Shown: positions 313-28,285 of the stretch, in pieces | Layout: each line of letters opens with the position of its first letter | Numbering within the stretch: position 1 is the stretch's first letter | Notes under the pieces: generated by a model | The model's input: the letters and a program-made list of their open reading frames with translations, nothing else | The model's database searches: none | Told to the model about the DNA's origin: nothing | Position numbers and translations under genes: made by a program | Assembly: GCA_030446435.1 (NCBI GenBank) | Contig: JASURT010000012.1 | Coordinates: 1 to 32,545, forward strand | Direction: 5' to 3' | Length of the DNA stretch: 32,545 nucleotides | Source: Candidatus Ozemibacter sp. | GTDB lineage: Bacteria; Muiribacteriota; Ozemobacteria; Ozemobacterales; Ozemobacteraceae

Positions 313-3216
313 CTACTCTTTTTTCTCTCTCAATTCAATCAGCTCGTAAATCGGAAATTCCCTACTTTTTCCTTTTAATGAGATTCTTTTTATGAATTTC
401 ATTCTGCCGGCACCTTTAAGGGCTCGAATGGTTGCCGGTCCAATAATTATATTGGTCTGAGGCTCTGCGATGTGCACATTTTTCAACCTGGCAGCAGTGT
501 TTACGGTATCGCCTATTACCGTATAGTCAAGCTTTCCATGGGTTTCACCGATGCGACCCGATATGACCATACCTGTCGACAAAGCCATTTTGGTTTCAAT
601 TCCCATTTCTGCCATACTGTCTTTTAGCTTGATAGCGGCTCGGCAAGCGCTTAGCGCGTGGGTGTCATCTTTCGGTTTTTTTGCTCTAAAAACCAGCATC
701 AGGGTCGTTTCAATCACCTTATCAAGAACGCCGGCGTTTTCTTCGGCGATTTTATCGCCCGCTTCAATAAACATTCCAAGCCTGCTCAAAAGAAGTTTGC
801 TGCTATTCTCTTTCAATTGTTGGTCGAAAAATTCTAGAGCAGCAAAAAGAATCGTTGCCTCGACCTTTTCTCCGCCGGGTTTCAGTTTTTGTTCGTCGAC
901 GCCACCAACAGCTTCAATTACATCTTTTGAAACGAATTGGCTGAGCTTTTCTTTTTGCGCGACGCCCAGCACCATTTCATCAAAAGCTTTTTTCATATCA
1001 CCAAATTCATTTTTGTCTTCTATTTCCGGGGTCGCCTCAAAATTCTGATCAGCAACTTTTTCTGCGGCCAGTGCCAGCTCTTGAATTGGTTGCAAATAGA
1101 TTTTTCGTATTATCTTCGCCAGAAAAATAAATTGTGCGAATAAAAAGGCAGGAACCAGAAATTTCAGTGCCCCGATCGCACTTTCTTCCGTTGGAACACT
1201 TACCTGTCTTGCTGCTACCAACAAAGGTGTTTTCGGAAAAACTTTTATGCCGAAGGTTTCAAGTTTCTGACCAGTTTTCTGCCAATACATAGACCGGTTT
1301 GTATCTAAAGCAATCTTCAGTCTCTGCTCAGGAATTGGCAATTTCAATTCGTTGAAAAGCTGAAGGTCTTCATTGTCACGCAGATAAAAAGAATATTCAG
1401 TGTATTCAGGAGCCAGGCCCGGCTTAAGTTCTTTCAAAAAGGCTTTTACAATTTCGAGTCTGTTGAATCTCAGCATCATGCAGCCCATATTTTTTCCTGT
1501 TGAATCATTCATTAGAGGAATTATTGAATATACGTTACGGGTTTTTGATTGTTCGAGACTGCCGAGTTTTCCGTTATTAGCTATAAGGGAACTTAAAAAA
1601 GTTGAATCGACAAGAAACTTTTCTTCGAAGAGATCAATGCCTTCTTCAAGATTATCAATATTTTTATATTCTTCTGCGCATTTAAAAGAGTTGAAAACCC
1701 CCTTGGCAAATAACCTTCGCAAAGAATCTTCTTCTTTTTCGAGGGGAATAAAATTGCTTTTGGGATTTTCAAAGCTTACAACTCTATCGGGGAAATCGAG
1801 ATACAATTCTTCTGCAAGGGAATTTTGCAAATTTCGGCTAATTAAACTCTCTATTTTGCCATGAGTAAGATTTTGCTGAATTTTTTCTGACAGAAGATAC
1901 GAAGAAAGCTGCAAATCTTCCTGAAAAAGATTAAATTTGTCCTGAATCTTTTCAAGCTTTCGTTGAAGAAGATTTTCTGCTTCGATTTCTATAGCCCTGT
2001 CATTTAAATCCTGCCAACTGACGTAAGACGTCAGCATTAAACCTGAAGGCATAAGCAAGGTCAGTAAGATGGCAAACGAAACCTTGGCTCTTATTCCAAG
2101 GTGCAGGTCAACGCCGAAAAAGAAAGCCCTGAGAAAGAAAAGAGTTCCGATCGCGACAAAAAAGACCTCGAACAGATAAATAAGCTGTTGATATTTTTTC
2201 AGCGGATGAATCAAAAAAGCCCTGTTCTTTGTAACAAGAATCAAAGGTAATCTTTTTCTTACTTTTGCCAGGCGTTCCGGATAAAAACCTCCCATTGATA
2301 TTATATGAGTCATGAGATTCTGAGGCATGGTTGTCCGCAACTGTAAGCCGGTTTGTGCAGAAGTAAAACCGGTAATTTTTTTCAATTCCAGAGTTTTGTC
2401 GTCATTCAGTTCAGAATCAAAAAACGTCACTTCGCGGCCAAGATTGCTTTTACCGGCCTTTATCGCAGATTGAACCACTCGCGTCGATGAAATGCTTCGC
2501 CCGCGAATCATAAAAAACAGACCGCTTTTTATGGATTTATTTTTGTCTGTAATTTTATAGAAGGGCTTGTAGTAGAAGTAAACAAATCCCCCAAGCTTTG
2601 AAGAAACTGAAACCATTGTCTTTTCAGGAGAACACGGAATCGGTGCAATCAGCCCGAAGATTCTCTGAAAAAAGAGGTCGGCATCTGCAACAAGCTTCTC
2701 TCTTGCAGCTTTGCTTTGAAATCTTTCAAGTTTCTTTTGATTTGAAGGATTCAAGGCAGGAAAAAGCGGCTGGTTATTGATTTTCATCAAAAGCTTCAGC
2801 GTAAAAAAATCAGATAATCGACCCAGTTTATCTGCCACCGACTTATCGATAAACCTGCTTTCAATCGAAGCAGTGTCATTTCCGTGTTCAATTACAAGCG
2901 TGGGCTTCAAACCGGTTTTTTTCTGCAAAAGTCTGGCGGCCTGCTCAGCATCAAGGTTGGCTTTTTTCGCAGATTCAGCAAAGAAAGCGGCAAATTCGCG
3001 ATTCAGATATTCTGGAATTTCAAGGTCTTTTTTGAAAATCAGGGCTTCGTTTATAAGTTCGTTGCGGGAAAGCTTTTCGTTACTTTTTTCAGCAAGCGAA
3101 AACATCATACTCAAAGTAGAATTCAAAAATAGAACAGGTAAAATAATCAGAAATAGCCAGGTTAGAAAAATAATCGGTCCCGATGGCTTGCGTTTGATTA
3201 TTACATTCCGGTCCAT
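313..3216 (-). CDS. Membrane class III cyclase-like protein lacking the metal-binding aspartates (C2-type half-site)
   Basis: This is a 967-residue protein. Membrane segments lie at about 16-36, 343-366, 373-395 and 680-705, so it has two extracytoplasmic sensor regions. A HAMP linker (about 700-755) and a class III nucleotide cyclase domain (about 785-960) follow. In the catalytic domain the first metal Asp is Ala793 (ILFAALEFF) and the second is Thr837 (DKVIETTLM), so neither metal ligand remains. The purine-binding pair Lys833 and Thr899 and the transition-state pair Asn906 and Arg910 (YTVIGDTVNTAARL) are all present with canonical spacing. Alone it should be inactive as a cyclase. It starts 3 nt after the stop of the upstream gene, so the two are probably translationally coupled. 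That neighbour keeps exactly the residues lost here, suggesting a heterodimer. Whether the product is cAMP or cGMP cannot be read from the sequence. Confidence 0.9.
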   Translation of the reverse strand: MDRNVIIKRKPSGPIIFLTWLFLIILPVLFLNSTLSMMFSLAEKSNEKLSRNELINEALIFKKDLEIPEYLNREFAAFFAESAKKANLDAEQAARLLQKKTGLKPTLVIEHGNDTASIESRFIDKSVADKLGRLSDFFTLKLLMKINNQPLFPALNPSNQKKLERFQSKAAREKLVADADLFFQRIFGLIAPIPCSPEKTMVSVSSKLGGFVYFYYKPFYKITDKNKSIKSGLFFMIRGRSISSTRVVQSAIKAGKSNLGREVTFFDSELNDDKTLELKKITGFTSAQTGLQLRTTMPQNLMTHIISMGGFYPERLAKVRKRLPLILVTKNRAFLIHPLKKYQQLIYLFEVFFVAIGTLFFLRAFFFGVDLHLGIRAKVSFAILLTLLMPSGLMLTSYVSWQDLNDRAIEIEAENLLQRKLEKIQDKFNLFQEDLQLSSYLLSEKIQQNLTHGKIESLISRNLQNSLAEELYLDFPDRVVSFENPKSNFIPLEKEEDSLRRLFAKGVFNSFKCAEEYKNIDNLEEGIDLFEEKFLVDSTFLSSLIANNGKLGSLEQSKTRNVYSIIPLMNDSTGKNMGCMMLRFNRLEIVKAFLKELKPGLAPEYTEYSFYLRDNEDLQLFNELKLPIPEQRLKIALDTNRSMYWQKTGQKLETFGIKVFPKTPLLVAARQVSVPTEESAIGALKFLVPAFLFAQFIFLAKIIRKIYLQPIQELALAAEKVADQNFEATPEIEDKNEFGDMKKAFDEMVLGVAQKEKLSQFVSKDVIEAVGGVDEQKLKPGGEKVEATILFAALEFFDQQLKENSSKLLLSRLGMFIEAGDKIAEENAGVLDKVIETTLMLVFRAKKPKDDTHALSACRAAIKLKDSMAEMGIETKMALSTGMVISGRIGETHGKLDYTVIGDTVNTAARLKNVHIAEPQTNIIIGPATIRALKGAGRMKFIKRISLKGKSREFPIYELIELREKKE

Positions 3217-3219
3217 TTC

Positions 3220-4131
3220 TCAGCCCTGTTTCGTTTCATAAATAACTTCGAAAATAGTTTGTCTTTCTGCCAGCTCGTTGAAACGTATTTTTTCCTGACA
3301 ATTGCTGGCAGTATTTGCACAGACCAGAATTTTGCTTAGAGAAAATTCTGCAGTCAGGCTTTCGAGTTCTTCTGCTTTTTTGACTGCTTTTCCCATGACA
3401 GAAAAGACCTTTCTACCGGTGTTAGAGCCAGAAATTGCAGTTAGAGCCTGATCGCTGACGATTCCTATGCCATTTTCCAGAATAAAACGATTCTGCTCTT
3501 TTCGCTGTTCATTAAGCTTTTTCAGGTTCTCTCGCATGGCAATAGCAGCTTTAACAGCTCTAAGAGAATGATGCTCGAGTTTATCATCCTGATAAAAAAT
3601 TGCAATTACCGCATCGCCGACAAACCTCTCTATAACACCTTTGTTTTCGACAATAGCCCGGCACATATGCGTAAAATATTCATTCAGGGTCAAAACTATT
3701 TCTTCGGGTTCATGCTTTTCGGTTAAAGAAGTAAAACCTCTGATATCAGACGCCAGAACTGCCATTTCGGCCTTTTCTATGAAAGAGTCTGACAGCTGAT
3801 GATTTTTTTTAATATTTTCGAACAACCTTTCTGAAACAAATTTTCTAAGGTTTTCTCTTTCATCAAGAGCTCTGGTCATATGATTCAAAGAATCGGCCAG
3901 CATTGAAAATTCATCAGTTTTTTCCATTTCGACCCTGACCTTGAAATTTCCGTTTCTGATTCTTTTAAAGAAGCCAATAAAGCCTGAAATGGGCTTTATT
4001 AAAAGTTCGCCGGTAAAATCACGAATCAGAAAAACACTGATCAAAGAAAAAATGCTTAAAACAGCTGGAAAAAAGCCTGCGATCCAGGCTATCCATTGAT
4101 CAGGGGCAAATTTGGATACTCCGGCAATCAA
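3220..4131 (-). CDS. HAMP plus class III cyclase-like domain keeping only the metal site (C1-type half-site); C-terminal half of a split gene
   Basis: The 303-residue frame opens at a TTG one codon after, and in the same frame as, the TAG at 4135-4137. It holds a membrane segment (about 14-36), a HAMP linker (about 40-95) and a cyclase domain (about 120-300). The metal aspartates Asp129 (LASDIRGFT) and Asp173 (RFVGDAVIAIF) are intact. The purine-binding Lys is Arg169, the Thr/Asp position is Ser244, and the catalytic Asn and Arg are Lys251 and Glu255 (SVMGKAVKKAEELE). This is the mirror image of the losses in the adjacent 313-3216 protein. With the upstream frame it makes a protein of about 989 residues, almost the length and architecture of that neighbour. 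The TTG could allow reinitiation after the stop. It is otherwise the 3' part of a nonsense-interrupted or readthrough gene. Confidence 0.8.
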   Translation of the reverse strand: MIAGVSKFAPDQWIAWIAGFFPAVLSIFSLISVFLIRDFTGELLIKPISGFIGFFKRIRNGNFKVRVEMEKTDEFSMLADSLNHMTRALDERENLRKFVSERLFENIKKNHQLSDSFIEKAEMAVLASDIRGFTSLTEKHEPEEIVLTLNEYFTHMCRAIVENKGVIERFVGDAVIAIFYQDDKLEHHSLRAVKAAIAMRENLKKLNEQRKEQNRFILENGIGIVSDQALTAISGSNTGRKVFSVMGKAVKKAEELESLTAEFSLSKILVCANTASNCQEKIRFNELAERQTIFEVIYETKQG

Positions 4132-4134
4132 TAC

Positions 4135-4137
4135 CTA
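4135..4137 (-). other. In-frame amber (TAG) codon splitting a cyclase gene
   Basis: The 684-residue frame ends ...YNENS, then TAG, Val and TTG; the downstream 303-residue cyclase frame continues in the same phase without any shift. In the paralogous neighbour the matching stretch (PLLVAARQVSVPTEES before the last membrane helix) is uninterrupted and aligns with VLIAGVSKFAPDQW here. The stop therefore lies inside one ancestral protein. TAG is an ordinary stop elsewhere in the window (for example at 313 and 29126). A point mutation, a sequence error, suppression or reinitiation are all possible. Confidence 0.85.
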
Positions 4138-6189
4138 GCTGTTTTCATTATAAACCCAGCGTGAAACAGTTCTGCTTTTGCCTGAAGATTTGGAAATTTT
4201 GCCAGAACTCGTTGAATTAACAGCCCTGTCCAGAAGCAGCTTTAAACCGGTATCTTCCCGTGAATTTTGCGGGTAACTTTTTACGATAGGTCCTTCAACA
4301 GAGCGCTCTGCGAGAGAAAACCTGTGAGTAAGAAATGGAGAGTCGTAATCGAGCAAAAAAGAAGGATTTCTGCCCAGTTGCTCAAAACAGTTACCAAATC
4401 TACTAATTGAAAACAAATGTCTGAAAGCAATAGCAAAGACAGGAGCACCATTTTGGGTTCTATCTGGTATTAAAGAATAATTCATTTTGTGAACATTGTT
4501 TATCTCAGCTATGTCTTTCGTATCCTGAGATTCAAGTGCAAGGTTCATACCTTCGAGATAATTTCGCGAAATTTCTTGGAGAAAACCATCAGCCAAACCA
4601 ACAAGTTCAAGCTCTCTTCGATTGTCGGCAATGCTCAAATCGAGCACACCAAGATTGTTAAGACATTTTACCGCAATCAATTTCGACATTCTTCGCGGCA
4701 CTTTATTTTTTTCATGTGCACTGAGAATTTTTGCAGTTCCGGTTATATCGTGGTAAGCCGTATCATCTACCAGTACATGCGGAATACGTTCTGACGCAGT
4801 AAAACCATTGAGCGAATTTTTGTTAAAATAGAGATAATCGCAAATTTCTTTTTTAACCTTTATTGATAGCAACTGTCTTCTTATTCTAAGGTCATCGATA
4901 TAAGATTTTATTTCAAAAAGTTTGCTGTCAGATTCTATTTCAACTTCTTTTTGGCCTGAATTTTCAATGTTTTCCAACAGCAGATCAGAAAAATAAGAAG
5001 TCAAAGCCAACGGAATCATGACTATAATACCGGCAATCAAAAGAAAACTTCCTCTCAATCCTGGCTCCCAGGGGAATCCGTACAGGCCGCAAAAAATAGA
5101 CGAGGCGAATATCAATAATATAAAAAGTCGGTTGATTAGATTCATTCGCTTTCGGCAAGCAATGATTTCCCGGTTTAAATCTTTCTTTGAAATGCTTACC
5201 TTAAGTAAAAAGTTGCTGATTTTTTCAGGGTTGGGATTCAAAAATTGCTCGGGGTAATCAGTCATAAAATTGGTCGGCAACGAAGAATAGCAAGCAAAAT
5301 CATGCTTAGATTCAACAAATTTCCCCTTCAAATCAGAAGAAAATTCTTTCAGGCCCCGATTAAACCTTTTATCTCCTTGATTAACCGCATTTTTAACCAC
5401 GAATTCGTGAGTTAACTGATCACTCGGCATGATAATAAAAAATCCACCAATGAATTTTTTTTCTGTTTGAAACGAGTCAGCGTAAAAATAAACCTTATTG
5501 CCGCCGACTCTCGACGTTGCTGCTTCGAAACAAATACCTCTTCCCCGCGGAAATTCTGACATGCCACTGAAAAAGTAACGCAGAAGGCTGTTTACACGAT
5601 TGCGATTGTCATCCAGAGAGACCTGTTTTCCGGCAAAAGAAAATTTCAGCACATTGTCAGAAAACTCTTTTGTCTCAGCGAGTTTAAAATCTGCAACATC
5701 AGCGACAAAGTAAGCAATGAGTCTGGTCAATCGGGCAATTCTGAAAACATCTTCACCGGCATATTCGTTTTTTGCAGAATGGTTTATATTTTGCCCCTGA
5801 AAGCCGACGCTGACAATATATTCGGGACTGATCCCCCATTTTTCTTCAAGAAAAGATCGAATTTTTTTTGCGGTATCGTTTTTGTAATACCCCGGATCAC
5901 TTTCAACCTTAAATTGACCATCTGATTTTTCCTGAATCAACCCAAGTTGCAAACTGGTTTCGTTAAAAATTCTTTCCAGAATTGATTTGTTTGAGAGAGA
6001 TTGCCTGAATGCGTTCATTTCTGACATTAAAGAAGATTCAGCCAGAGAAACATTTTTCTTTTCTTTTTCTTCTAAAACAGCAGAAAAATGCCATGTGGCC
6101 CAGCAATATGGAATAAGCAGAATAATGACTGCCCACAGCACATTTGACCAGTTTGTGTTTTCTTTTTTCATGGCCATTAAAAATATCAT
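4135..6189 (-). CDS. Membrane sensor half of a split cyclase-like protein
   Basis: This is a 684-residue frame with an N-terminal membrane helix (about 17-36), a long extracytoplasmic region to about 345, two further helices (about 350-370 and 380-400) and a second soluble region to the TAG. It has no catalytic domain. The layout matches the N-terminal 680 residues of the 313-3216 paralogue; the conserved stretch after the third helix (IPLALTSYFSD here, PSGLMLTSYVSW there) supports common descent. HAMP and cyclase domains follow in the same frame beyond the TAG. Sensor identity is unknown; I see no clear named fold. ATGs at 6189, 6177 and 6171 are all possible starts, and none has a good ribosome-binding site. 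The gene is divergent from the 6251 gene across 61 nt. Confidence 0.8.
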   Translation of the reverse strand: MIFLMAMKKENTNWSNVLWAVIILLIPYCWATWHFSAVLEEKEKKNVSLAESSLMSEMNAFRQSLSNKSILERIFNETSLQLGLIQEKSDGQFKVESDPGYYKNDTAKKIRSFLEEKWGISPEYIVSVGFQGQNINHSAKNEYAGEDVFRIARLTRLIAYFVADVADFKLAETKEFSDNVLKFSFAGKQVSLDDNRNRVNSLLRYFFSGMSEFPRGRGICFEAATSRVGGNKVYFYADSFQTEKKFIGGFFIIMPSDQLTHEFVVKNAVNQGDKRFNRGLKEFSSDLKGKFVESKHDFACYSSLPTNFMTDYPEQFLNPNPEKISNFLLKVSISKKDLNREIIACRKRMNLINRLFILLIFASSIFCGLYGFPWEPGLRGSFLLIAGIIVMIPLALTSYFSDLLLENIENSGQKEVEIESDSKLFEIKSYIDDLRIRRQLLSIKVKKEICDYLYFNKNSLNGFTASERIPHVLVDDTAYHDITGTAKILSAHEKNKVPRRMSKLIAVKCLNNLGVLDLSIADNRRELELVGLADGFLQEISRNYLEGMNLALESQDTKDIAEINNVHKMNYSLIPDRTQNGAPVFAIAFRHLFSISRFGNCFEQLGRNPSFLLDYDSPFLTHRFSLAERSVEGPIVKSYPQNSREDTGLKLLLDRAVNSTSSGKISKSSGKSRTVSRWVYNENS

Positions 6190-6831: not shown

Positions 6832-7152
6832 TCAGTTAACGGTACAGATTTTCAATCCGATTATTCCTGAGATAACCAGGACAATGCTGACGACACGACC
6901 TATGGTAACTGCCTCTCCGAGAAAAACTATGCCGAAAATAACGGTGCCGATTGAACCTATTCCGACCCAGGCGGGGTAAGCAGTACCAACGGGCAGGCTT
7001 TTCAAAGCAACCGTAAGCAATCCGACACTGCCGACAAGTGAAACCAGAGTAATAATGCTGGGCCAGATTTTTGAGAAACCTTCAGTGTATTTGAGACCAA
7101 TTGCCCAGGTAATTTCAAGAAGTCCTGCAAGAACGAGAATGATCCAGGCCAT
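6832..7152 (-). CDS. sugE: Small multidrug resistance family exporter, Gdx/SugE-like (probable guanidinium/H+ antiporter)
   Basis: The 106-residue protein has four membrane helices, the standard SMR size. The essential membrane glutamate is Glu13 in GLLEITWAIGLKYT, a stretch typical of the Gdx (formerly SugE) branch rather than EmrE. The second signature, PVGTAYPAWVGIGSIG, is also Gdx-like. Family members work as dual-topology dimers in the inner membrane and many export guanidinium in exchange for protons. A purine-rich AAAGGGGTGGGG precedes the ATG. A well-formed promoter lies at 7197-7225, leaving a leader of only about 37 nt, too short for a guanidine riboswitch. Its substrate is inferred from family only. 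Confidence 0.85.
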   Translation of the reverse strand: MAWIILVLAGLLEITWAIGLKYTEGFSKIWPSIITLVSLVGSVGLLTVALKSLPVGTAYPAWVGIGSIGTVIFGIVFLGEAVTIGRVVSIVLVISGIIGLKICTVN

Positions 7153-8779: not shown

Positions 8780-8808
8780 TTGCCTTTAGTGTTTTGCGGC
8801 GTTATACT
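8780..8808 (+). promoter_or_regulatory. Probable promoter of the one-carbon/glycine operon
   Basis: TTGCCT (8780-8785) and TATACT (8803-8808) are spaced by 17 nt, matching four and five positions of the sigma70 boxes. The predicted start near 8815 gives a leader of under 30 nt before folD, so no glycine riboswitch fits between promoter and gene. Confidence 0.5.
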
Positions 8809-8841
8809 CAGCCTGAAAAATTGCAAATCAGGAGTTGTGAA

Positions 8842-9714
8842 TTGACTAAAATCATTGATGGAAAAGCCATTTCAGCCACAATAAAAGCCGAAGTAGCCGC
8901 TGAAGTTCAGCAGATGATCGAGGCCGGGAAACAGGCACCCGGATTGGCAGTCGTTCTTGTGGGCGAAAATAAAGCAAGTCAGGTTTATGTTTCGATGAAA
9001 AAGAAGGCTTGCGAAAAAGCAGGCATATATTCCCGCGAAATACAGCTGCCCGAAACGGTAACCATGAATGAGCTTTTGACAGAAGTTAAGAAGTTGAACG
9101 ATGACAGCCAGATCCATGGCATTTTAGTCCAGCTTCCGTTACCTTCTCATATCGATGAGCAAGAAGTTCTCAACCATATTGACCCGCGCAAGGATGTCGA
9201 TGGTTTTCACCCGATCAACGTCGGAAACCTCAGTCTGAAAATCGACGGCTTTGTCCCCTGCACTCCGCTTGGGGTAATGGAAATGCTCAAGCGCTCAAAC
9301 ATAGAAATTCAGGGAAAAAATGCTCTGGTTCTTGGGCGCTCTAACATTGTCGGTAAGCCAATGGCGATGTTGCTGACCAACGCACACGCCACCGTAACGA
9401 TTGCCCACTCCAAAACCCGTGACCTGGCAGAACAGATAGGTCGCGCCGATATTCTGGTCGCGGCCATCGGCCGACCAGAATTCGTTAAGGGCGAATGGAT
9501 CAAAGAAGGCGCGGTGGTAGTTGACGTCGGCATAAATTCAATCGATGACCCCAATTCGGCAAAAGGCTACCGACTGGTTGGCGATGTCGAATACGAAAGC
9601 GCTGCGGCAAAAGCCGCGCACATTACTCCGGTGCCGGGCGGAGTAGGCCCAATGACTATAGCAATGCTTCTTTCAAATACTTTGAAAGCAAAAAAGAAAT
9701 ATTACAATTCATAA
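8842..9714 (+). CDS. folD: Bifunctional methylene-THF dehydrogenase / methenyl-THF cyclohydrolase
   Basis: FolD interconverts 5,10-methylene-THF, methenyl-THF and 10-formyl-THF in the cytosol. I chose the TTG at 8842 because AGGAG (8830-8834) lies 7 nt upstream and the protein then begins (M)[11 protein letters not shown] like other FolD; an in-frame ATG at 8794 would add 16 unlikely residues. The 290-residue length is normal. Catalytic Tyr and Lys lie in [12 protein letters not shown]. Folate-site motifs VQLPLPSHI and [11 protein letters not shown], the nucleotide-binding [13 protein letters not shown] and the C-terminal [10 protein letters not shown] are all intact. It is the first gene of the glycine operon and links methylene-THF to the formate ligase three genes on. 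Confidence 0.95.
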
Positions 9715-9736
9715 AGGAATAATTGGAGAAACTGAA

Positions 9737-10894
9737 GTGGAATTAGATACCCTGTTAATGACCCCAGGTCCGGTTCATCTCGATTCAGACGTGCTGCTTG
9801 CAGGCGCCAGACCACTCAGCCATCATCGAACCAATGATTTTTCGCCGGTTTATGAAGACTGTGTTGCGAAGCTGAAGAAAATTTTTGGCACCAGCCAAAA
9901 ACTTTATCTTACGACCTCGTCGGGCACCGGTGTTATGGAAACAGCTATAGCCAACCTTTTTAATGAAGGCGAAACAGTTTTAACCGTCGACACTGGAATT
10001 TTCGGACAGCGCTTCAGCAAAATCGCCGAAGCTTTTCGTTTAAAAGTAATCACTTTAAAATGTGATGACGGCAAAAAGGTCAGAGTCGAGCAGATTGCCG
10101 AAGCTCTTGAAAAGAACCCTGAAATTTCAGGCATTACCGTTACTTTTAACGAAACTTCTACCGGCATCAGAAATGATGTAAAAGCCATCGGAGAATTTCT
10201 TAAAGATAAGGGCAAAATCTTTATCACAGACGGAGTTTCGGGCATTGGCGCCCTGCCCTTCAAAATGGATGAATGGCATATCGACGTTGCTGTTTCAGCC
10301 TCACAAAAGGGTTTTCTTACCCCCCCAGGCGTAGGTATGATTGCTTTGTCTGAAAAAGCCTGGAAAAAAGTTGAAACCGTAAAATGTCATGGCTACTACT
10401 TCGATCTGAAGCTGTATCGTGACAATCAGGAATTGCCGATTCCGGCCTACCCCTGGACCCCGGCCATCAACGTCATGTTCTCGCTTCAGGTAGCCCTTGA
10501 AAAGCTTGAAAGAACAGGCATGAACAACGTTTATGCCCATTATGAAAAGCTTGCCGGCGGCCTGAGAGCAGCGCTAAAGGCCCTTAACCTCAAGCTCTTC
10601 ACTGAAGAAGAAGCCTGCTCAAATGTTCTGACCGTTTTTTACACCCCCGAAGGAATCAGCCCCAAAGAAATCGTGGCTGAAATGCGCAGTCGTTATGGCA
10701 TTCTCATTGCCGCTGGTCAGGCGCAATATAATGACAAGGTTTTACGCATAACCACCATAGGTGCAATCGGTGAGCGCGACCTGATTGGCACAATCGGTTT
10801 GCTCGAAATGACTCTTGTGAAAAAAGGCTGTTTGAAACAAGCCGGAGCAGGGGTTGCCGCCATGATGGAATATTTTCTTAAAAACGAAAGGTAA
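9737..10894 (+). CDS. Class V aminotransferase (alanine/serine-glyoxylate aminotransferase family)
   Basis: This is a 385-residue PLP enzyme. It opens with the family motif LLMTPGPVHLDSDVL and HHRTNDF, with SSGTGVMETAI as the phosphate-cup region. The Schiff-base lysine is Lys191 in SASQKGFLTPPGVG. The closest named relatives are alanine-glyoxylate, serine-glyoxylate and serine-pyruvate aminotransferases; substrate choice cannot be read from the sequence. It lies inside the operon between folD and fhs, so glycine formation from glyoxylate, or a serine-to-hydroxypyruvate step, is likely. The start is GTG at 9737 with GGAG at 9725-9728. A soluble hydrogenase small-subunit label, often given to this family, would be misleading. 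Confidence 0.85.
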   Translation: MELDTLLMTPGPVHLDSDVLLAGARPLSHHRTNDFSPVYEDCVAKLKKIFGTSQKLYLTTSSGTGVMETAIANLFNEGETVLTVDTGIFGQRFSKIAEAFRLKVITLKCDDGKKVRVEQIAEALEKNPEISGITVTFNETSTGIRNDVKAIGEFLKDKGKIFITDGVSGIGALPFKMDEWHIDVAVSASQKGFLTPPGVGMIALSEKAWKKVETVKCHGYYFDLKLYRDNQELPIPAYPWTPAINVMFSLQVALEKLERTGMNNVYAHYEKLAGGLRAALKALNLKLFTEEEACSNVLTVFYTPEGISPKEIVAEMRSRYGILIAAGQAQYNDKVLRITTIGAIGERDLIGTIGLLEMTLVKKGCLKQAGAGVAAMMEYFLKNER

Positions 10895-10900
10895 ACAGTT

Positions 10901-12565
10901 TTGAACAATATTGAAGCCGAAAAAATAGATCAGATTCGACCTATTGAAGAAGTCGGGGCCGATCTTGGCCTGCTTCCTGAAGAAATCGAACCTTATGGTC
11001 GTTTGAAGGCCAAAATTGCTTACAGTGCTAAACAGAGAGTCAGCGAAAACAAAAACGGCAAACTGATTCTTGTTTCAGCAATGACACCGACCCCAGCCGG
11101 GGAAGGCAAAACCACAACCTGCATCGGCCTTGCCGACTCATTGCGCATGCTTGGTCGCAAAACTGCACTTTGCCTGCGTGAACCATCTATGGGCCCGGTT
11201 TTCGGCATCAAAGGCGGCGCAACCGGCGGCGGCAAAAGTCAGCTGGTTCCCATGGAAGAAATAAACCTTCATTTTACCGGCGATATTCATGCCATCACTT
11301 CGGCCCACAATCTGCTTACCGCATTAATTGCCAACCACATTAACCACGGAAACGCTCTTAGAATAGACCCCAAGGCTGTGCCGTTCAAAAGGGTGATAGA
11401 TATGAACGAACGCAGTTTAAGAAATATAGTGGTTGGCCTTGGCGCCGGTAACGGAGTTTCGAAAGAAACCGGCTTTGACATTACCGCAGCATCAGAAGTC
11501 ATGGCTATTTTGTGTCTTGCTGCAGATATAACTGATCTTAAACGCAGACTTGGTGAAATGGTGGTCAGCTTTGATGTTGATGGGCAGCCGGTAAGAGCCA
11601 AAGACCTGAAAGCCCAGGGTGCAATGGCCGCAATACTAAAAGAAGCCATAAAACCAAATCTGGTTCAGACTCGCTATTCAACGCCAGTTCTGGTGCATGG
11701 CGGACCTTTTGCCAATATCGCTCACGGCTGCAATAGTTTGATGGCAACGCAAATGGCGCTGAAACTTGCTGATCTGGTAGTTACAGAAGCCGGCTTTGCC
11801 ACTGACCTCGGCGCAGAGAAATTCTTCGACATCAAGTGCAGATATGGAAAACTTCGCCCGGATGCGGCAGTGATCGTTGCCACAATAAGAGCTCTTAAAA
11901 TGCACGGTGGCGTTGCAAAAAGTGACCTGAAATCCGAAAACCTTGAAGCGGTTAAAAAAGGATTTGAAAATCTAACGAAACACATCGAAAACATACAGAT
12001 GTTCGGGGTTCCGGCGGTTGTGGCCGTGAACAAATTTCATACCGATACGGATGCTGAGATAAACTGGGTTCTTGACCAGGTCAAAAAGCTTGGTTTCGAA
12101 GCCGTTGTTTCTGATATTTATGCCAATGGGCCAAAGGGCGGCATCGAATTGGCCGAGGCGGTAGAAAAGGCTATCGAAAGTGGTAAAAACGAATTTGATT
12201 TTCTCTACCCTCTTGAAATGCCTTTGATCGAAAAAATCAATGTTATTGCGCGATGTTGTTATGGTGCGGGCAGCGTAACCATCCTTCCCAAAGCCAAAAG
12301 GCAACTCGAAAAATTTGAAACCCTGGGCTATCGCCATGTACCGGTTTGCATAGCAAAAACCCAGGCTTCGCTTTCAGACAACGCCAAACTTCTCGGTCGC
12401 CCCAGAGATTTTGACGTGGTGGTTAGAGAAGCCAGATTAAGCGCCGGCGCAGGCTTCGTTGTGGCAATCGCCGGAGAGATTATGACCATGCCCGGTTTAC
12501 CCAAAGAACCGGCTGCAGAAATTATTGATATCGACGAAAACGGTCAGATAACCGGACTGTTCTAA
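10901..12565 (+). CDS. fhs: Formate-tetrahydrofolate ligase
   Basis: The 554-residue length is typical. The enzyme joins formate to THF with ATP, giving 10-formyl-THF, and is reversible, so it can also make ATP from formyl-THF. The nucleotide-binding loop TPTPAGEGKTT is near residue 64, followed by the family sequences REPSMGPVFGIKGGATGGG and GDIHAITSAHNLL. The C-terminus carries the usual MTMPGLPKEPAAE. The start appears to be TTG at 10901, 6 nt after the aminotransferase stop, with only a weak AAAGG upstream. With folD and glyA it forms a full formate-to-serine route. Confidence 0.95.
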   Translation: MNNIEAEKIDQIRPIEEVGADLGLLPEEIEPYGRLKAKIAYSAKQRVSENKNGKLILVSAMTPTPAGEGKTTTCIGLADSLRMLGRKTALCLREPSMGPVFGIKGGATGGGKSQLVPMEEINLHFTGDIHAITSAHNLLTALIANHINHGNALRIDPKAVPFKRVIDMNERSLRNIVVGLGAGNGVSKETGFDITAASEVMAILCLAADITDLKRRLGEMVVSFDVDGQPVRAKDLKAQGAMAAILKEAIKPNLVQTRYSTPVLVHGGPFANIAHGCNSLMATQMALKLADLVVTEAGFATDLGAEKFFDIKCRYGKLRPDAAVIVATIRALKMHGGVAKSDLKSENLEAVKKGFENLTKHIENIQMFGVPAVVAVNKFHTDTDAEINWVLDQVKKLGFEAVVSDIYANGPKGGIELAEAVEKAIESGKNEFDFLYPLEMPLIEKINVIARCCYGAGSVTILPKAKRQLEKFETLGYRHVPVCIAKTQASLSDNAKLLGRPRDFDVVVREARLSAGAGFVVAIAGEIMTMPGLPKEPAAEIIDIDENGQITGLF

Positions 12566-12584
12566 ATAAGGCAAGGAGTGAATG

Positions 12585-13673
12585 ATGAAGAAGACACCTC
12601 TCTGTTCGGTGCACGAAAAACTAGGCGCGAGAATGATTGATTTCTCAGGTTGGTATATGCCGGTTCAATACTCTTCAATTATCGAAGAGCATAACGCGGT
12701 TCGTGAAAACTCAGGTCTTTTTGATCTTTATCACATGGGCGAATTCTGGCTTACCGGAAAAGATGCCCTGAAAAACGTGCAAAAGATCGTTACCCAGGAT
12801 ATAGAAGCCATTTCAGACCGACAGATTGCTTATACCCCAATGTGTCGACCAGATGGCACAATCATCGACGATCTTCTGGTCTATCGCTGGAATGAATACA
12901 AATTTCTGCTCGTGGTTAACGCCGCCAATATAGATAAAGATTTTGCCTGGATCAAAAGTCAGCTTGAAGGCGAAGTTGAATTGACAAATGATTCAGACGA
13001 CACTGGTCTTATCGCTATTCAGGGCCCAAACGCTGAAGCTATTCTGCAGAAACTTACCCGCCAGAGACTTAAATCGATCAAATTTTACTGGTTTACTACC
13101 GGCAAAGCCGCCGGAGTGGAATGCATAATCAGCCGCACCGGTTACACCGGCGAAGAAGGCTTTGAGCTTTATTATCCCGCAGAAAAATCAGAAGAACTCT
13201 GGAACGCATTGATGGAAGCGGGTAAAGAACTCGGAATCAAACCAATAGGGCTTGGCGCACGTGATACGCTTCGTCTTGAAGCCAGACTGATGCTTTATGG
13301 CAATGATATTAACGATGAAACTACGCCAATCGAGGCTAACCTCAACTGGACTGTCAAATTTGCCAAGGGCGCGTTCAATGGCAGCGATGTCATGAAAGAA
13401 CAGAAAGAAAATGGCACCAAAAAGACAATCGTTGGTTTTGAACTTGGCAAAGGGCCGGCTGCCCGCCATGGCTACCCGATCATGAAAGATGGCAAAGCCG
13501 TTGGTGAAGTAACTTCAGGTACAATGTCCCCTACTCTGAAAAAAAATATCGGTCTTGGTTATGTGCCACCTGAACTAAGCAAAATCGGCACAAAACTGGA
13601 TATTGAAATTCGCGGAAAAAATTATCCGGCTACCGTAATCGAAACGCCGTTTTATTCAAGGAAAAGGAGCTAA
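12585..13673 (+). CDS. gcvT: Glycine cleavage system T protein (aminomethyltransferase)
   Basis: This roughly 362-residue protein transfers the aminomethyl carbon between lipoylated H protein and THF. Motifs: [11 protein letters not shown] at the N-terminus, [11 protein letters not shown], the folate-binding acidic stretch [11 protein letters not shown], and [12 protein letters not shown]. Two consecutive ATGs are available at 12582 and 12585; AAGGAG at 12573-12578 is 3 or 6 nt away respectively, so I prefer 12585. It follows fhs by under 20 nt and precedes glyA by 2 nt, consistent with one transcript. Confidence 0.95.
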
Positions 13674-13675
13674 GG

Positions 13676-14914
13676 ATGCAGAATTTAAAAATTGCTGATC
13701 CCGAAATTTTTGAAATCGTTGAACGTGAAAAACAGAGACAGATGAGCCAGATCGAGCTTATCGCTTCAGAAAACTTTGTTTCAGATGCGATTCTCGATGC
13801 AATGGGTTCTGTTTTAACCAACAAATATGCCGAAGGTTATCCGGCAAAGCGTTATTATGGCGGCTGTGAAGTCGTTGATGACGCTGAAAACGTCGCCCGT
13901 GAAAGAGTTAAAAAGATTTTTGGCGCAGACCATGCCAATGTTCAGCCGCATTCAGGCAGCCAGGCAAATATGGCTGTTTACCAGGCGGTAATGAAACCCG
14001 GCGAAACTTTCCTGGGCATGAATCTTTCAAATGGCGGCCATCTTACCCATGGCAGCCCGGTTAACTTTTCAGGTATTCTTTACAATGTAGTTCCCTACGG
14101 AGTTGACGATGAGAATGAAATGATCGATTACGATGCCTTAAGAGCACTCGCAGTTGAACATAAACCCAAAATGATCATGGCCGGTGCATCTGCCTACCCA
14201 AGAGTTATCGATTTCAAGCGTTTTCGCGAAATTTGTGACGAAGTTGGTGCGGTACTCTGCGTAGACATGGCTCATATTGCCGGTCTGGTTGCTGCAGGGC
14301 TTCATCCAAGCCCGGTTCCATATGCTGATTTCGTAACGTCCACTACCCACAAAACTTTGCGTGGGCCTCGTGGCGGTTTGATTCTCTGCAAAGAGCAGTG
14401 GGCCAAAGCTATTGACAAAGCAATTTTCCCAGGACTTCAGGGCGGACCTTTGATGCATGTAATCGCAGCCAAGGCCGTTGCATTCAAAGAAGCGCTCGAC
14501 CCATCTTTCAAAGAATACCAGCAGAAAGTTCTCGACAATGCCCAGGCGCTTGCCTCAGCACTGACCGAAAAAGGCTTCAGACTGGTTTCTGGTGGAACTG
14601 ACAATCATTTGATGCTGATCGATGTCAGAAACAAGAATATAACCGGTAAAGCCGCTGAAAAAGCCCTTGATAAAGCCGGCATAACCGTCAATAAGAACAC
14701 CATTCCGAATGACCCGCAGTCACCATTCGTAACTTCCGGACTGCGAATCGGCACCCCTGCAGTAACTACCAGAGGCATGAAACCTGAAACCATGAAAGAA
14801 ATCGCTGACCTGATCGACCAGGTTCTTTCAGATCACGAAAACGAAAGCAATCTCGCTGCCGTCAAAGAAAAAGTAAACAACATCTGCAGCAAATTTCCCT
14901 TTTATAAATTTTAA
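13676..14914 (+). CDS. glyA: Serine hydroxymethyltransferase
   Basis: This 412-residue PLP enzyme interconverts serine plus THF with glycine plus methylene-THF. The N-terminal signature [14 protein letters not shown], the [14 protein letters not shown] loop and the PLP lysine Lys226 in [14 protein letters not shown] are all present. The length is normal. AAGGAG (13664-13669), inside the end of gcvT, is 6 nt from the ATG, so translation is probably coupled. In this operon it is the step that joins the glycine system to serine. Confidence 0.97.
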
Positions 14915-14933
14915 GAAATCAGGAGAGAATAAA

Positions 14934-15293
14934 ATGAAATACACAAAAGAACACGAATGGGCGAATCTTGAAGGCGATACCGCAACCGTCGGCATTACCG
15001 ACTATGCTGCAAACCAGCTGGGCGACGTAGTTTTCGTCGAAATGCCCGGTGTTGGAGACAGCGTCGGCAAAGGCGATACCATCGGCACCATCGAATCAGT
15101 AAAAACCGTTTCTGATCTTTATTCTCCGCTGACAGGTGAAATCGTGGCCGTAAACGAAGAAATCGAAAGCAATCCTGGCCTGGTTAATGAAGATCCTCAT
15201 GGCAAGGGCTGGTTGATTAAAATTAAACTATCAGACCCGAAAGAAATGGATGACCTTCTTTCTGAAGCTGATTACAAAGCAATCTGCGAATAA
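14934..15293 (+). CDS. gcvH: Glycine cleavage system H protein (lipoyl carrier)
   Basis: The 119-residue protein carries lipoate on Lys57 (GTIESVKTVSDLYSP) and shuttles the aminomethyl group between P, T and L proteins. It starts directly with KYTKEHEWA, a few residues shorter than many H proteins at the N-terminus. AGGAG at 14921-14925 is 8 nt upstream of the ATG. No lipoate ligase or lipoyl synthase is in the window. Confidence 0.97.
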   Translation: MKYTKEHEWANLEGDTATVGITDYAANQLGDVVFVEMPGVGDSVGKGDTIGTIESVKTVSDLYSPLTGEIVAVNEEIESNPGLVNEDPHGKGWLIKIKLSDPKEMDDLLSEADYKAICE

Positions 15294-15311
15294 TTTCAGG
15301 AGACAATTCTA

Positions 15312-16658
15312 ATGGCCAATTATATTCCAAATACTCCTGATGAAGTTCAGGAAATGCTCAAGGCCATAGGGGTAAAAACGGTAGACGATCTTTTTGCCGA
15401 AATTCCGCCGGAATTGAAGCTGCAAAGCGAACTAAACATTCCCGCCGGAGTCAGCGAAGTTGAAATGGCGCGCGAACTTAAAGCTTTGGCCCGCGAAAAC
15501 ACCACTGTCGATGAGGCTGTTTGTTTTCTCGGTGGCGGAGCCTATGATCATATTGTTCCTGCTGTAATCGACCACATTCTTCTGCGTGGAGACTTCTTTA
15601 CCGCTTACACACCCTATCAGCCTGAAGTATCTCAAGGCACTCTTCAGGCAATTTATGAATATCAGAGCCTGATCAGTTCACTTACAGGAATGGATCAGTC
15701 TAACGCTTCGATGTATGAAGGTGCTTCAGCAACAGCAGAGGCCATCAACATGGCCACCGCCCAGACAAGACGCAAGCGTGTGCTGGTAATGCAAACGGTT
15801 AACCCTGAGTATCGTCGCGTTATCAACTCGCTTTGCCAGACCATGGGAACTGAAATCGTAAGTGTTCCGTTTGAAGACGGCACCATAGACCCTGGCAAAG
15901 TCGGCGAACTGATAAATAAAGAAACTGCTGCCATCGTGATTCAATATCCGAATTTCTTCGGTACTATTGAAGACATAGAGCGAATATCAGCCATGGCCCA
16001 CGAAAATGGTGCTCTGGCTATTGTTATTGCGAATCCGATCGCTCTTGGTCTGCTGGAAGCCCCGGGGAACCTTGGTGCAGATATCGTCACCGGTGAAGGT
16101 CAACCACTTGGCATACCCCTGAGTTTCGGTGGTCCGTATCTGGGATTTCTTGCCGCAAACAAACCTCTGCTGCGGCGTATGCCCGGCAGAATCGTCGGCA
16201 GAACCGTTGATATCGATGGCAAAACCGGTTTTGTTCTGACTTTGCAGGCACGAGAGCAGCATATTCGTCGCGAAAAAGCTAGTTCGAACATCTGTTCAAA
16301 TCAGGCTTTAATGGCTCTTAATGCGACCATTTACATGAGCCTGATGGGCAAAGATGGCATAAAAGAAGTTGCCGGCCAAAGCTTTCAAAAGGCTCATTAC
16401 CTGAAACGTGAACTGGCTGAAATCAAGGGACTTTCATTTCCATTCACCGGCAGTTTCTTTAACGAGCTGGTAATCAAGTTTCCCAATGCAAGAAAGATTC
16501 TTGGAAAAATGGCAAAACAGGGAATTTTTGCGGGAATACCGCTTGATAACTACTTCTCTGGCCTGAAAGATCATGTTCTTGTAGCCGTAACCGAAAAACG
16601 CAGCAAAGGCGAGATAGACCGCTATGTAGACATGTTAGGAGGGTTGATCAATGGCTGA
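15312..16658 (+). CDS. gcvPA: Glycine dehydrogenase (decarboxylating) subunit 1
   Basis: This is the 448-residue N-terminal-type half of the P protein, split as in many anaerobes, Firmicutes and Thermus relatives. Typical stretches are [36 protein letters not shown], and [20 protein letters not shown]. It lacks the PLP lysine, which sits on subunit 2; the pair forms an alpha2beta2 enzyme that decarboxylates glycine onto H protein or, in reverse, fixes CO2. AGGAGA (15298-15303) precedes the ATG. Its stop overlaps the next gene by 8 nt, indicating coupled, equimolar synthesis. Confidence 0.97.
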
Positions 16659-18102
16659 ACCTCTGATTTTTGATCTTTCGAAAGATGGCCGCCGCGGCTA
16701 TACCCTTCCTGAACTCGATGTTCCCGAAGTAGATCCGGCAGATCACATTCCTGCCAGGTTTCTGCGAAAAGAACTGAACATGCCTTCATTATCAGAAGTA
16801 GAGGTGGTAAGACATTTCACCCGACTGTCGCGGCTTAATCACAGTCTCGATGTGGGCTTCTATCCCCTCGGGTCATGCACAATGAAGTATAACCCAAAAG
16901 TGAATGAAGATATGGCGCGTCTGCCAGGGTTCGCTCACATTCATCCTCTTCAGCCCGAAGATACGGTTCAGGGCGCCTTAAAAATGCTGAGCAAACTTGA
17001 AAGCTATCTTTGCGAAATTACCGGCATGGATTCGATGACACTTCAGCCCGCTGCCGGCGCCCAGGGTGAATTGACCGGCCTTCTGATCATGCAGGCTTAT
17101 CACAGAAAAAACAACAATCACAAGACCAAGATCATCATTCCAGACAGTGGACACGGAACCAATCCGGCGTCATGTTCGATGGTCGGCTATGAAGTTGTTA
17201 ACGTCAAGTCTGACCCACGCGGTGGTGTCGACATGGAAGACCTGAAATCGAAACTTACCCCAGATGTAGCCGGGTTGATGATTACCAACCCCAATACTCT
17301 CGGATTATTCGATGAAAACATTGGCGAACTCGCTAATCTGATTCATTCTGTCGATGGCCTGGTTTATTATGACGGCGCGAATCTCAATGCCATCATGGGT
17401 TGGACCAGACCTGGCGATATGGGCTTTGACATTGTTCATCTGAATCTGCATAAGACCTTCTCTACCCCACACGGCGGTGGTGGACCTGGTGCAGGTCCGG
17501 TGGGTGTAAAAAGTCATCTTGAAGCATATCTGCCAAATCCAAGAATTCAATTCGATGGAAAGAAATACAAAGTTACCACCAAATGCCGCGAATCTGTAGG
17601 GCCGGTGCTTGCCTCTCTCGGAAACTTTCTGGTTCTCGTCAGAGCTTTTGCCTATATAACGGTTAATGGACGTGAAGGCCTGAAGGATATTTCTACTCAT
17701 GCGGTTCTGAATGCGAATTACATGATGCAAAGACTTAAAAAGACCTATAAATTGCCTTATGACCGTTTTTGCAAACATGAATTCGTGCTTTCAGGCAAAA
17801 CTCTCGGTGAATTTGGGGTTAAAACTCTCGATGTAGCCAAGCGTCTGCTCGACTTTGGCTTTCACGCCCCAACCGTATACTTTCCGTTGATCGTTGAAGA
17901 AGCGATGATGATAGAGCCCACTGAAACAGAAAGTAAAGGAACGCTCGACTGCTTTATGGAAGCGCTTGAAATGATCGCTGCCGAAGCAAAGGAAAATGCT
18001 GAAATTCTCAAGCAGGCTCCGGTTAAAACCCCGGTTCGCAGACTAGATGAAGCAACAGCAGCCAGAAAACCCGATATAAACTACTATCGAAAACCTGAAT
18101 AA
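16651..18102 (+). CDS. gcvPB: Glycine dehydrogenase (decarboxylating) subunit 2
   Basis: This 483-residue catalytic half of the P protein carries the PLP lysine Lys268 in [16 protein letters not shown]. Family stretches [18 protein letters not shown] and [11 protein letters not shown] are intact. AGGAGG (16637-16642) lies inside gcvPA, 8 nt before the ATG. It is the last gene of the operon and is followed at once by a terminator-like hairpin. The L protein (dihydrolipoyl dehydrogenase) is absent here and must be encoded elsewhere. Confidence 0.97.
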
Positions 18103-26683: not shown

Positions 26684-28285
26684 ATGAAAAAATATTCTGT
26701 CGCAAGTAATAGATTCTCACTGTTAAAATCTGATTTATTCTGGATAATAGTTTTTCTTTGCCTCGGGCTTGCCGGGCTTGACTATTATAATTTTACCAAG
26801 CTTGGCGAATTCGTAGTTGCCATACATAGCCTTGTTGCCGTTTTAGTTCTATTGGTATCGGCTTTACTTGTTGAAGAAAACTATTTCTTCTGGGCAATAA
26901 TAATTTTGTTTCCTAACACCGCTTTCATGTTTTATTTAAGTCTTGGGTCAGGTTCTTTCAAGCCTTTTATGTGGGGTTTTCTGACCGAAATGATTATTGT
27001 TCTGATGATGACTCTTTTTCAGTGGCGTCTGCACAAATCATTCATTTCAGAAGAAGCTTTCGGCAAGATGAAAACTGAGTTAAGAGACCACAAAGACAAC
27101 AGTCTTTCAAGAATACTTTACTTCAGCCTTATCGGTTGTCTCAGAGATCGAAACAAAATTATTTCTCAGGCTTATCATGTTCTTGAAACCTGCTTTAAAG
27201 CAGATTCTGCAATGCTTTTTCTTGCCGACCACGAAAACAACGTCCTTGTTCCGTCTCCCAAAAGAGGCGACAGGTTCGCCAAAAATATTCAACCAATTAT
27301 GGTAAGCCCTGACTTCTGGGAAAAAGCCGCTTATGATCCTGAAAAAGGCGTTCTGAATGTAATTAACGGACAAGCGACCTTGCCCTCTTTAAGAGAGCTT
27401 ATTCCCCAAGCCAATCTCGATGCCCTGGCAGCTATGCCCGTCAGCTCAGGCAACCGCGTTATTGGTTTGATAGCAGTAATCAGACAAAAACCCGAAAACC
27501 GACATTACCTCGAACCCTCTCTTTTTGTAACCTTTGCTTACGTACTCGGTTCATCTCTCGAGAATTGCGCTGTTCACGAATTCCGAAAAAAGATGCTCGA
27601 CAGTGCTGAGAAAAAGTCAGAAATGATCAGAAATGCCTTCGGAAAATATGTTTCCGATTCAATAGTCGATGAATTGATTAACAATCGTGAAATGGCTGGT
27701 CTAGGAGGAAAGAAAAAGAAAGTTTCTATTCTTATGGCCGATCTTCGCGGTTTTACGGCACTTGCTTCGGTTATGCCGATCGAGCAGCTTGTGCCAATTT
27801 TGAATTCATGGTTTGAAATTGCCACTCATCTAATTCTTAGAAGTAACGGCACCATCGACAAATACATGGGTGATTGTGTGATGGTAATTTTTGGCGCCCC
27901 GATCGAGAAAGCCGACGATGTTCTCAGATCAGTTTATACAGCCTTCAGACTTCAGGAAAAATTCACGGAATTCAGAAAAACCATTGAATTACCTGAAGGT
28001 TATGATCTTGGCCTGGGAATCTCTATCAGCACAGGCACTGCCATTGTAGGCAACTTCGGTTCTTCAAACAGAATGGAATACACCGCTATCGGCGAAACGG
28101 TAAATCTTGCTGCCAGACTCGAAAAACTGGCTGGAGCTGGTGAAATTGTGGTTAACGAAAATACTTTCGGTCAGATTCCGCAGCATAAATTCAGATATGA
28201 AACCGAATCGAACGTACCTATTAAAGGCATTGCCAATCAGACAGTCTATCGTCTGAAAGAAGTTCTGCGCAGTCAACGCAACTGA
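26684..28285 (+). CDS. Membrane adenylate/guanylate cyclase with GAF sensor and complete active site
   Basis: This 533-residue protein has four predicted membrane helices within about 18-115, a GAF-type sensor at about 140-300, a short coiled transducer (AFGKYVSDSIVDELI) and a class III catalytic domain (about 340-525). The full residue set is present: metal Asp353 (MADLRGFT) and Asp397 (KYMGDCVMVIF), purine-site Lys393 and Thr467 (EYTAIGETVNLAARLE), and Asn474 and Arg478. It should be active as a homodimer with two sites. The Lys/Thr pair is that of class IIIb adenylate cyclases, some of which are bicarbonate-sensitive. It has no good ribosome-binding site. It converges with the TspO gene with 4 nt between stops. 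Confidence 0.9.
   Translation: MKKYSVASNRFSLLKSDLFWIIVFLCLGLAGLDYYNFTKLGEFVVAIHSLVAVLVLLVSALLVEENYFFWAIIILFPNTAFMFYLSLGSGSFKPFMWGFLTEMIIVLMMTLFQWRLHKSFISEEAFGKMKTELRDHKDNSLSRILYFSLIGCLRDRNKIISQAYHVLETCFKADSAMLFLADHENNVLVPSPKRGDRFAKNIQPIMVSPDFWEKAAYDPEKGVLNVINGQATLPSLRELIPQANLDALAAMPVSSGNRVIGLIAVIRQKPENRHYLEPSLFVTFAYVLGSSLENCAVHEFRKKMLDSAEKKSEMIRNAFGKYVSDSIVDELINNREMAGLGGKKKKVSILMADLRGFTALASVMPIEQLVPILNSWFEIATHLILRSNGTIDKYMGDCVMVIFGAPIEKADDVLRSVYTAFRLQEKFTEFRKTIELPEGYDLGLGISISTGTAIVGNFGSSNRMEYTAIGETVNLAARLEKLAGAGEIVVNENTFGQIPQHKFRYETESNVPIKGIANQTVYRLKEVLRSQRN

Follow-up and report, generated by a model that had tools for sequence, protein, structure and literature searches.

Two adjacent cyclase domains, neither of which holds a complete active site, raise the question of whether they are degenerate copies or the two halves of one enzyme. 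They are encoded on the minus strand of a 32,545-nucleotide (nt) stretch of DNA from Candidatus Ozemibacter sp. (assembly GCA_030446435.1, contig JASURT010000012.1, positions 1 to 32,545), which was analysed as a whole and is called the window here. The source genome belongs to Candidatus Riflebacteria; HGW-Riflebacteria-1 and Candidatus Rifleibacterium amylolyticum are among its named relatives. An initial annotation, made from the DNA letters alone, had read the locus as a two-protein membrane cyclase whose domains have lost complementary halves of one site, and the analysis presented herein supports that interpretation of a split two-subunit enzyme. We conclude that the locus very probably encodes an obligate heterodimeric two-subunit membrane receptor cyclase that has one working site and one dead one, and whose product would be cyclic AMP (cAMP).

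A tandem gene pair that divides the residues of one site

The two metal-binding Asp residues, the purine-contacting Lys and Thr and the transition-state Asn and Arg occupy positions with established roles in class III cyclases. At the window locus these positions are divided between a C1-type subunit, which keeps the metal half, and a C2-type subunit, which keeps the rest. The C1 gene (988 codons) comes first in the direction of transcription and the C2 gene (967 codons) second, and the features of the locus are as follows.

3220..6189 (-): C1-type subunit gene, 988 codons in a single frame that one internal TAG interrupts; paralogous to the C2 gene over its full length
4135..6189 (-): 5' part of the C1 gene, 684 amino acids (aa), with three transmembrane (TM) helices and both extracytoplasmic sensor regions
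4135..4137 (-): in-frame TAG separating the second sensor region from TM4 in the C1 gene
3220..4131 (-): 3' part of the C1 gene (303 aa frame), with TM4, HAMP and the C1-type cyclase domain
3862..3966 (-): HAMP of C1, at residues 56-90 in the 303 aa frame
3235..3777 (-): C1-type cyclase domain, carrying the metal half, Asp129 and Asp173 (numbering of the 303 aa frame)
3217..3222 (-): gene junction, TGA (C1 stop), GAA, ATG (C2 start); the two genes share a frame, with 3 nt between them
313..3216 (-): C2-type subunit, 967 aa, identified by HAMP and PF00211 matches, hydropathy and an AlphaFold2 model (mean predicted local distance difference test, pLDDT, 81.6)
970..1095 (-): HAMP of the C2 subunit, residues 708-749
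322..879 (-): C2-type cyclase domain, supplying Lys833, Thr899, Asn906, Arg910 and Lys948, with the metal sites lost (Ala793, Thr837)
373..375 (-): Lys948 of the xKGK motif, present in C2 and with no counterpart in the C1 domain

Both domains score well above the PF00211 cut-off of 21.9 bits (47.4 bits for C1, 37.7 for C2). In the 303 aa frame the C1 domain has Arg169 for the purine Lys, Ser244 for Thr, Lys251 for Asn and Glu255 for Arg. Every residue that the initial annotation quoted for the two frames proved correct, and a hidden Markov model (HMM) alignment to class III domains, including ones of known structure, places them at the expected positions. A seventh position, the Lys of the xKGK motif, divides in the same way, being kept in C2 and lost in the C1 domain. 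The complete class III residue set for one dimer site is thus found in the pair taken jointly and in neither domain singly.

The C2 subunit runs from TM1 through a sensor region of about 310 aa outside the cytoplasm, TM2 and TM3, a second such region of about 290 aa, and TM4 to HAMP and the cyclase domain. When the frames 3220-4131 and 4135-6189 are joined, the resulting 988-codon C1 frame has the same layout as this 967 aa protein and aligns end to end with the intact C1 genes of relatives. The earlier description of tandem paralogues 3 nt apart therefore holds for the full-length genes (988 and 967 codons), while 3220-4131 is not a gene of its own; likewise, each arm has its own extracytoplasmic sensors in the gene layout, but in the window the sensor part of the C1 arm is cut off by the stop codon. 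None of the sensor regions matched a Pfam family, and the 50 best matches listed for the full C2 model in Foldseek are all cyclases; the alternating strands and helices of the model may be PAS/Cache-like, which we offer as a lead only.

The internal TAG is likely to be a recent nonsense mutation or an assembly error. Its alignment column holds ordinary residues in the intact C1 relatives, and the source assembly is a draft of 259 contigs, 84% complete. Recoding of the TAG was considered and rejected, as TAG also ends the C2 gene and the window frame 29126-30097 and is an ordinary stop in the family. A genuine split into three pieces is possible, if unlikely: the window copy would then comprise a sensor protein (4135-6189), a TM4-HAMP-C1 protein restarting at a TTG at 4131, and C2. 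The stop does sit at a domain boundary just before TM4, with the TTG one codon later, but this TTG lacks a convincing ribosome-binding site, the intact relatives read straight through the stop column, and in a draft of 259 contigs that contains other broken frames an error or a recent nonsense mutation is the more likely cause. We therefore treat the locus as a pair of full-length genes.

Conservation of the residue split in the family

Relatives were surveyed with an HMM built from the cyclase domains of the source genome together with P. aeruginosa CyaB and Spirulina CyaC, and seven key positions were read in each domain. A single C2 protein used as the query for relatives returned no match; an alignment used as the query found the loci, from which a deduplicated sample of 299 domains was taken. 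A domain was classed as C1 if it has both metal Asp residues and has lost Asn and/or Arg, and as C2 if it keeps Asn and Arg and has lost at least one metal Asp; the Lys and Thr positions were left out of the definition. In this sample the GTDB family of the window has 78 C1-type, 81 C2-type and 19 canonical domains and one that is neither. All sampled domains from other Riflebacteria families (53/53) and from other phyla (67/67) are canonical, the metal Asp residues and Asn/Arg being kept in 120 of these 120, with the proviso that outside Riflebacteria the scan was a sample, drawn through peptide patterns for the regions of the Asn/Arg and Lys motifs, and could have missed C1-only proteins there.

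The division is sharpest among the 150 domains that stand in tandem arrays: 73 keep the metal Asp residues and have lost Asn and/or Arg, 75 show the reverse, none has lost both halves and two look canonical. The Fisher value for this split (6e-41) is descriptive only, because the domains are related to one another. The positions outside the definition follow the same line, with Lys, Thr, Asn and Arg all kept in 75/75 C2 domains, whereas C1 domains keep Lys in 41/73 and Thr in 31/73; the xKGK Lys, counted as Lys or Arg, is present in 67/75 C2 domains versus 3/73 C1 domains. No scattering of the substitutions over both classes, a pattern named beforehand as one that would speak against a split enzyme, was seen. 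One of the two canonical-looking array domains (L096) belongs to a canonical cyclase located next to a complementary pair, and the other (L014) is discussed below.

Tandem pairs that do not overlap one another number 70, in 25 genomes of the family, alongside two adjacent same-strand exceptions to complementarity. After the pattern had been fixed, all 63 PF00211 matches of one further, well-covered genome (G004) were taken as a held-out census, and its 19 tandem pairs, 12 of them new to the analysis and seven already in the first sample, each consist of one C1 and one C2 domain (19/19), four being fused; of its 25 single domains 21 are canonical and the other four divergent or fragmentary. The intact pair closest to that of the window also lies in this genome (C111, L059). 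The 70 adjacent family pairs and the census together show that the complementary pattern is not due to chance. Genomes keeping only one member of the pair were also looked for, and in the first sample every unpaired C1 or C2 lay at the edge of a contig or locus, next to a broken frame, or in an array that continues to its partner beyond the fetched piece; in the G004 census two short fragments stood alone. Two apparent members were discarded on inspection: a supposed complete tandem neighbour (L259) proved to be a chance HMM match to a protein that reads like an FHA-domain protein and is not a cyclase, and a supposed C2 (L025) is a canonical domain truncated at its N-terminus.

The source genome has 36 PF00211 matches, many of them as tandem pairs about 3 kb apart, and the number per genome across the family ranges from 8 to 87. 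Five genomes (G012, G011, G004, G021 and G016) carry 61 to 87 such domains each, a very large cyclase complement for bacteria.

Pairing, fusion and origin of the split

Separate genes make up 56 of the 70 pairs, and in 54 of these 56 the open frames overlap or lie no more than 60 nt apart. In the remaining 14 pairs the two subunits are fused into a single chain, 1,797-2,483 aa long and ordered sensor/TM-C1-sensor/TM-C2, with the same residue partition. These 14 relatives thus have the single-chain TM-C1-TM-C2 layout, the window pair being two genes, and the designation of a two-protein cyclase, which fits the two-gene pairs, is too narrow for a family with many single-chain members. The fusions, together with the correlated divergence of partners, add support to the interpretation of the locus as a split enzyme. 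C1 distances track those of the C2 partners with a Mantel r of 0.78 against a permutation maximum of 0.135, and when partners are swapped within genomes the mean r falls to 0.43 and the highest value is 0.61.

The extracytoplasmic and membrane parts of C1 and C2 subunits are homologous over 633 profile columns (E 6e-35), from which it follows that the pair arose by duplication of a whole receptor. In trees built without the active-site columns C1 and C2 stand largely apart, requiring 3-4 changes as compared with 63-65 in shuffles, and approximately unbiased (AU) tests reject neither a single C1 clade (p 0.33) nor a single C2 clade (p 0.16). The split may have arisen once or a few times, the trees and AU tests favouring neither. 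Two short canonical cyclases of the family, L094 (371 aa) and L114 (400 aa), are placed among the split domains in the trees and are candidates for a homodimeric sister lineage.

The order is C1 then C2 in most pairs and C2 then C1 in 12, a statement that is partly built in because the pairing script used the His subtype to order long arrays. In these 12 pairs C2 has His at the first metal position and keeps Asp at the second. This C2-first, His-bearing subtype (L077, L097, L107, L092, L093, L112 and others) possibly represents a separate origin of the split. Two further loci depart from the simple pair. At L148 (2-9713) frames of the types C1, C1 and C2 stand in a row, which may be a three-subunit array or may have a partner outside the fetched stretch. 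At L015 (source genome, C246; 5685-9853) a C1-C2 gene is seemingly frameshifted, the C1 frame running about 300 codons into the next arm and the C2 domain appearing in a frame other than that of C1.

Comparison with known cyclases

In profile comparisons with the mammalian adenylyl cyclases (AC), C1 best fits the C1 halves of AC5, AC8 and AC9, and C2 best fits the C2 halves of AC5 and AC8 but finds the C1 half of AC9; these matches are partly driven by the kept residues themselves. The slice of a natural fusion (L079) from C1 to its end was modelled with AlphaFold2 (15 aligned fusions; mean pLDDT 75, predicted template-modelling score, pTM, 0.50). The best Protein Data Bank match of this model in Foldseek is human AC5, over 1,236 columns (E 4.5e-16); with AC9 the query template-modelling score (TM-score) is 0.28, whereas single-domain matches reach at most 0.17 (0.15 for CyaB). 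Read from these match scores, the two modelled domains appear to superpose jointly in the mammalian C1:C2 arrangement, and we would attribute the large overall root-mean-square deviation of the matches (29-36 Å) to the unrelated membrane part.

The closest known counterparts are the mammalian AC1-AC9, class IIIa pseudo-heterodimers in which, as proposed here, C1 gives the metal Asp pair and C2 gives the Lys, the purine residue, Asn, Arg and the phosphate Lys, and which have one active and one dead site and two membrane halves; the fused Riflebacteria forms even have the same TM-C1-TM-C2 order in one chain. The mammalian enzymes, however, have six TM helices per half and no HAMP, whereas the Riflebacteria pairs have four, with large extracytoplasmic sensors and HAMP, and at the C2 purine position class IIIa has Asp whereas the Riflebacteria C2 has Thr (75/75), as in class IIIb. 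The Riflebacteria pairs are also often encoded by two genes, with many paralogues per genome, and are confined to one bacterial family in this sample. Given the four TM helices per half, the HAMP and the Thr, the Riflebacteria enzyme would work like a mammalian AC without being a member of that family.

Homodimeric bacterial membrane cyclases, such as CyaB of P. aeruginosa (3r5g) and the mycobacterial Rv1625c/Cya, share the catalytic fold and motifs, with CyaB among the best matches of both Riflebacteria domain types in sequence and in structure. These homodimers have two equivalent complete sites, with the whole residue set in every domain, whereas the Riflebacteria domains carry half each, 148 of the 150 array domains being without one half. 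Soluble guanylyl cyclase, with its alpha and beta subunits, is an obligate class III heterodimer from separate genes. The same is true of the chytrid RGC/NeoR rhodopsin-cyclases (PMC8815786, PMC12264004). Both resemble the Riflebacteria pairs in this respect but are eukaryotic guanylyl cyclases with unrelated sensor domains. According to a 2022 review, no fused dimeric class III cyclase is known from bacteria, and our search of the open literature turned up neither a bacterial heterodimeric class III cyclase nor any work on the cyclases of Riflebacteria. The C1/C2 split site has so far been described for animal adenylyl cyclases, and its occurrence in bacteria would be new.

Proposed mechanism and its alternatives

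We propose that each subunit, with its four TM helices, two extracytoplasmic sensor regions, HAMP relay and class III cyclase domain, would pair head to tail with its partner. At the productive interface site C1 would provide the two metal Asp residues, and C2 would provide the ATP-selecting Lys and Thr, the transition-state Asn and Arg and the phosphate-binding Lys; the second interface site would be dead on both sides. The signals of as many as four sensor regions could then be integrated through two HAMP relays onto a single cAMP-making site, and in relatives the same machine would also exist as a single chain (4TM-C1-4TM-C2). We infer heterodimer assembly, catalysis, cAMP as the product and signal integration; the comparisons themselves give the residue partition and its conservation, the pairing, the homology of the arms over their whole length, the fusions and the correlated divergence.

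Several points weigh against this proposal. The C1 frame of the window is interrupted by the TAG, and the window's own pair may therefore be damaged or mis-assembled. The counts of paralogues are not phylogenetically independent. The fusion model is of only moderate confidence (pTM 0.50). Not all C1 domains have lost every position: at L014 (source genome, C23; 5382-8330) the domain in the C1 position keeps Asn and Arg, has Arg for the purine Lys and lacks the xKGK motif, and the neighbouring C2 is without both metal Asp residues. This C1-position domain is possibly an intermediate.

As to the product, the invariant Lys/Thr pair of C2 indicates ATP and hence cAMP. That the obligate heterodimer instead makes cGMP or another cyclic nucleotide seems to us improbable; the Lys/Thr pair does not always predict specificity in bacteria, and Cya2 (2w01, called a guanylyl cyclase in that entry) ranks among the top sequence matches of the C1 profile, but Lys and Thr are the usual ATP-selecting pair of class IIIb. 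It is less likely still that the pair is a heteromeric receptor that uses its cyclase domains as scaffold or allosteric modules for some other output and makes no cyclic nucleotide. Degenerate cyclase domains that serve as regulators are known in principle, but the pair keeps exactly the residues of one complete site, which a loss of catalysis would not hold in place, and the source genome encodes 11 cyclic nucleotide-binding domains. Decay, with tandem duplicates on the way to losing their cyclase function and the clean split of the window a matter of luck, can be dismissed in spite of the internal stop and a few broken copies elsewhere (L076, L113, L024), since the array domains fall into the two complementary classes with none lacking both halves, C2 keeps Lys, Thr, Asn and Arg without exception, the pairs co-diverge and fuse, and the held-out genome is complementary throughout.

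It is probable that bacteria evolved the animal adenylyl cyclase plan independently, in that in one Riflebacteria family a receptor cyclase was duplicated, split into C1 and C2 forms that persisted as tandem genes, fused into single chains in some members and amplified to about twenty pairs in a single genome, each pair integrating several sensors at one catalytic site.

Other genes of the window

A third cyclase in the window (26684-28285, plus strand) is a protein of 533 aa with a complete canonical domain (DDKTNRK) and a weak GAF-like match, and it is unpaired. Just upstream of the cyclase pair lies a protein of 106 aa (6832-7152, minus strand) whose sequence looks like that of a small multidrug resistance (SMR) transporter. 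At 8794-18102 (plus strand) there is a one-carbon/glycine operon with FolD, a class V aminotransferase, formate-tetrahydrofolate ligase, GcvT, SHMT and a GcvP encoded by two genes. The open reading frames of the window that were examined yielded no gcvH.

Significance

If the pairs are active, the statement of the 2022 review falls, and the asymmetric design known from animals recurs in bacteria, where it takes the form of separate genes as well as of fusions. The question of why one of two active sites is given up in evolution then becomes testable on many natural pairs, fused and unfused, which can be compared in how they integrate signals, how specific their partners are and what the dead site does. 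As genetically simple two-gene asymmetric receptors, the Riflebacteria pairs would lend themselves to the study of how transmembrane adenylyl cyclases are regulated and to the building of two-input cAMP sensors.

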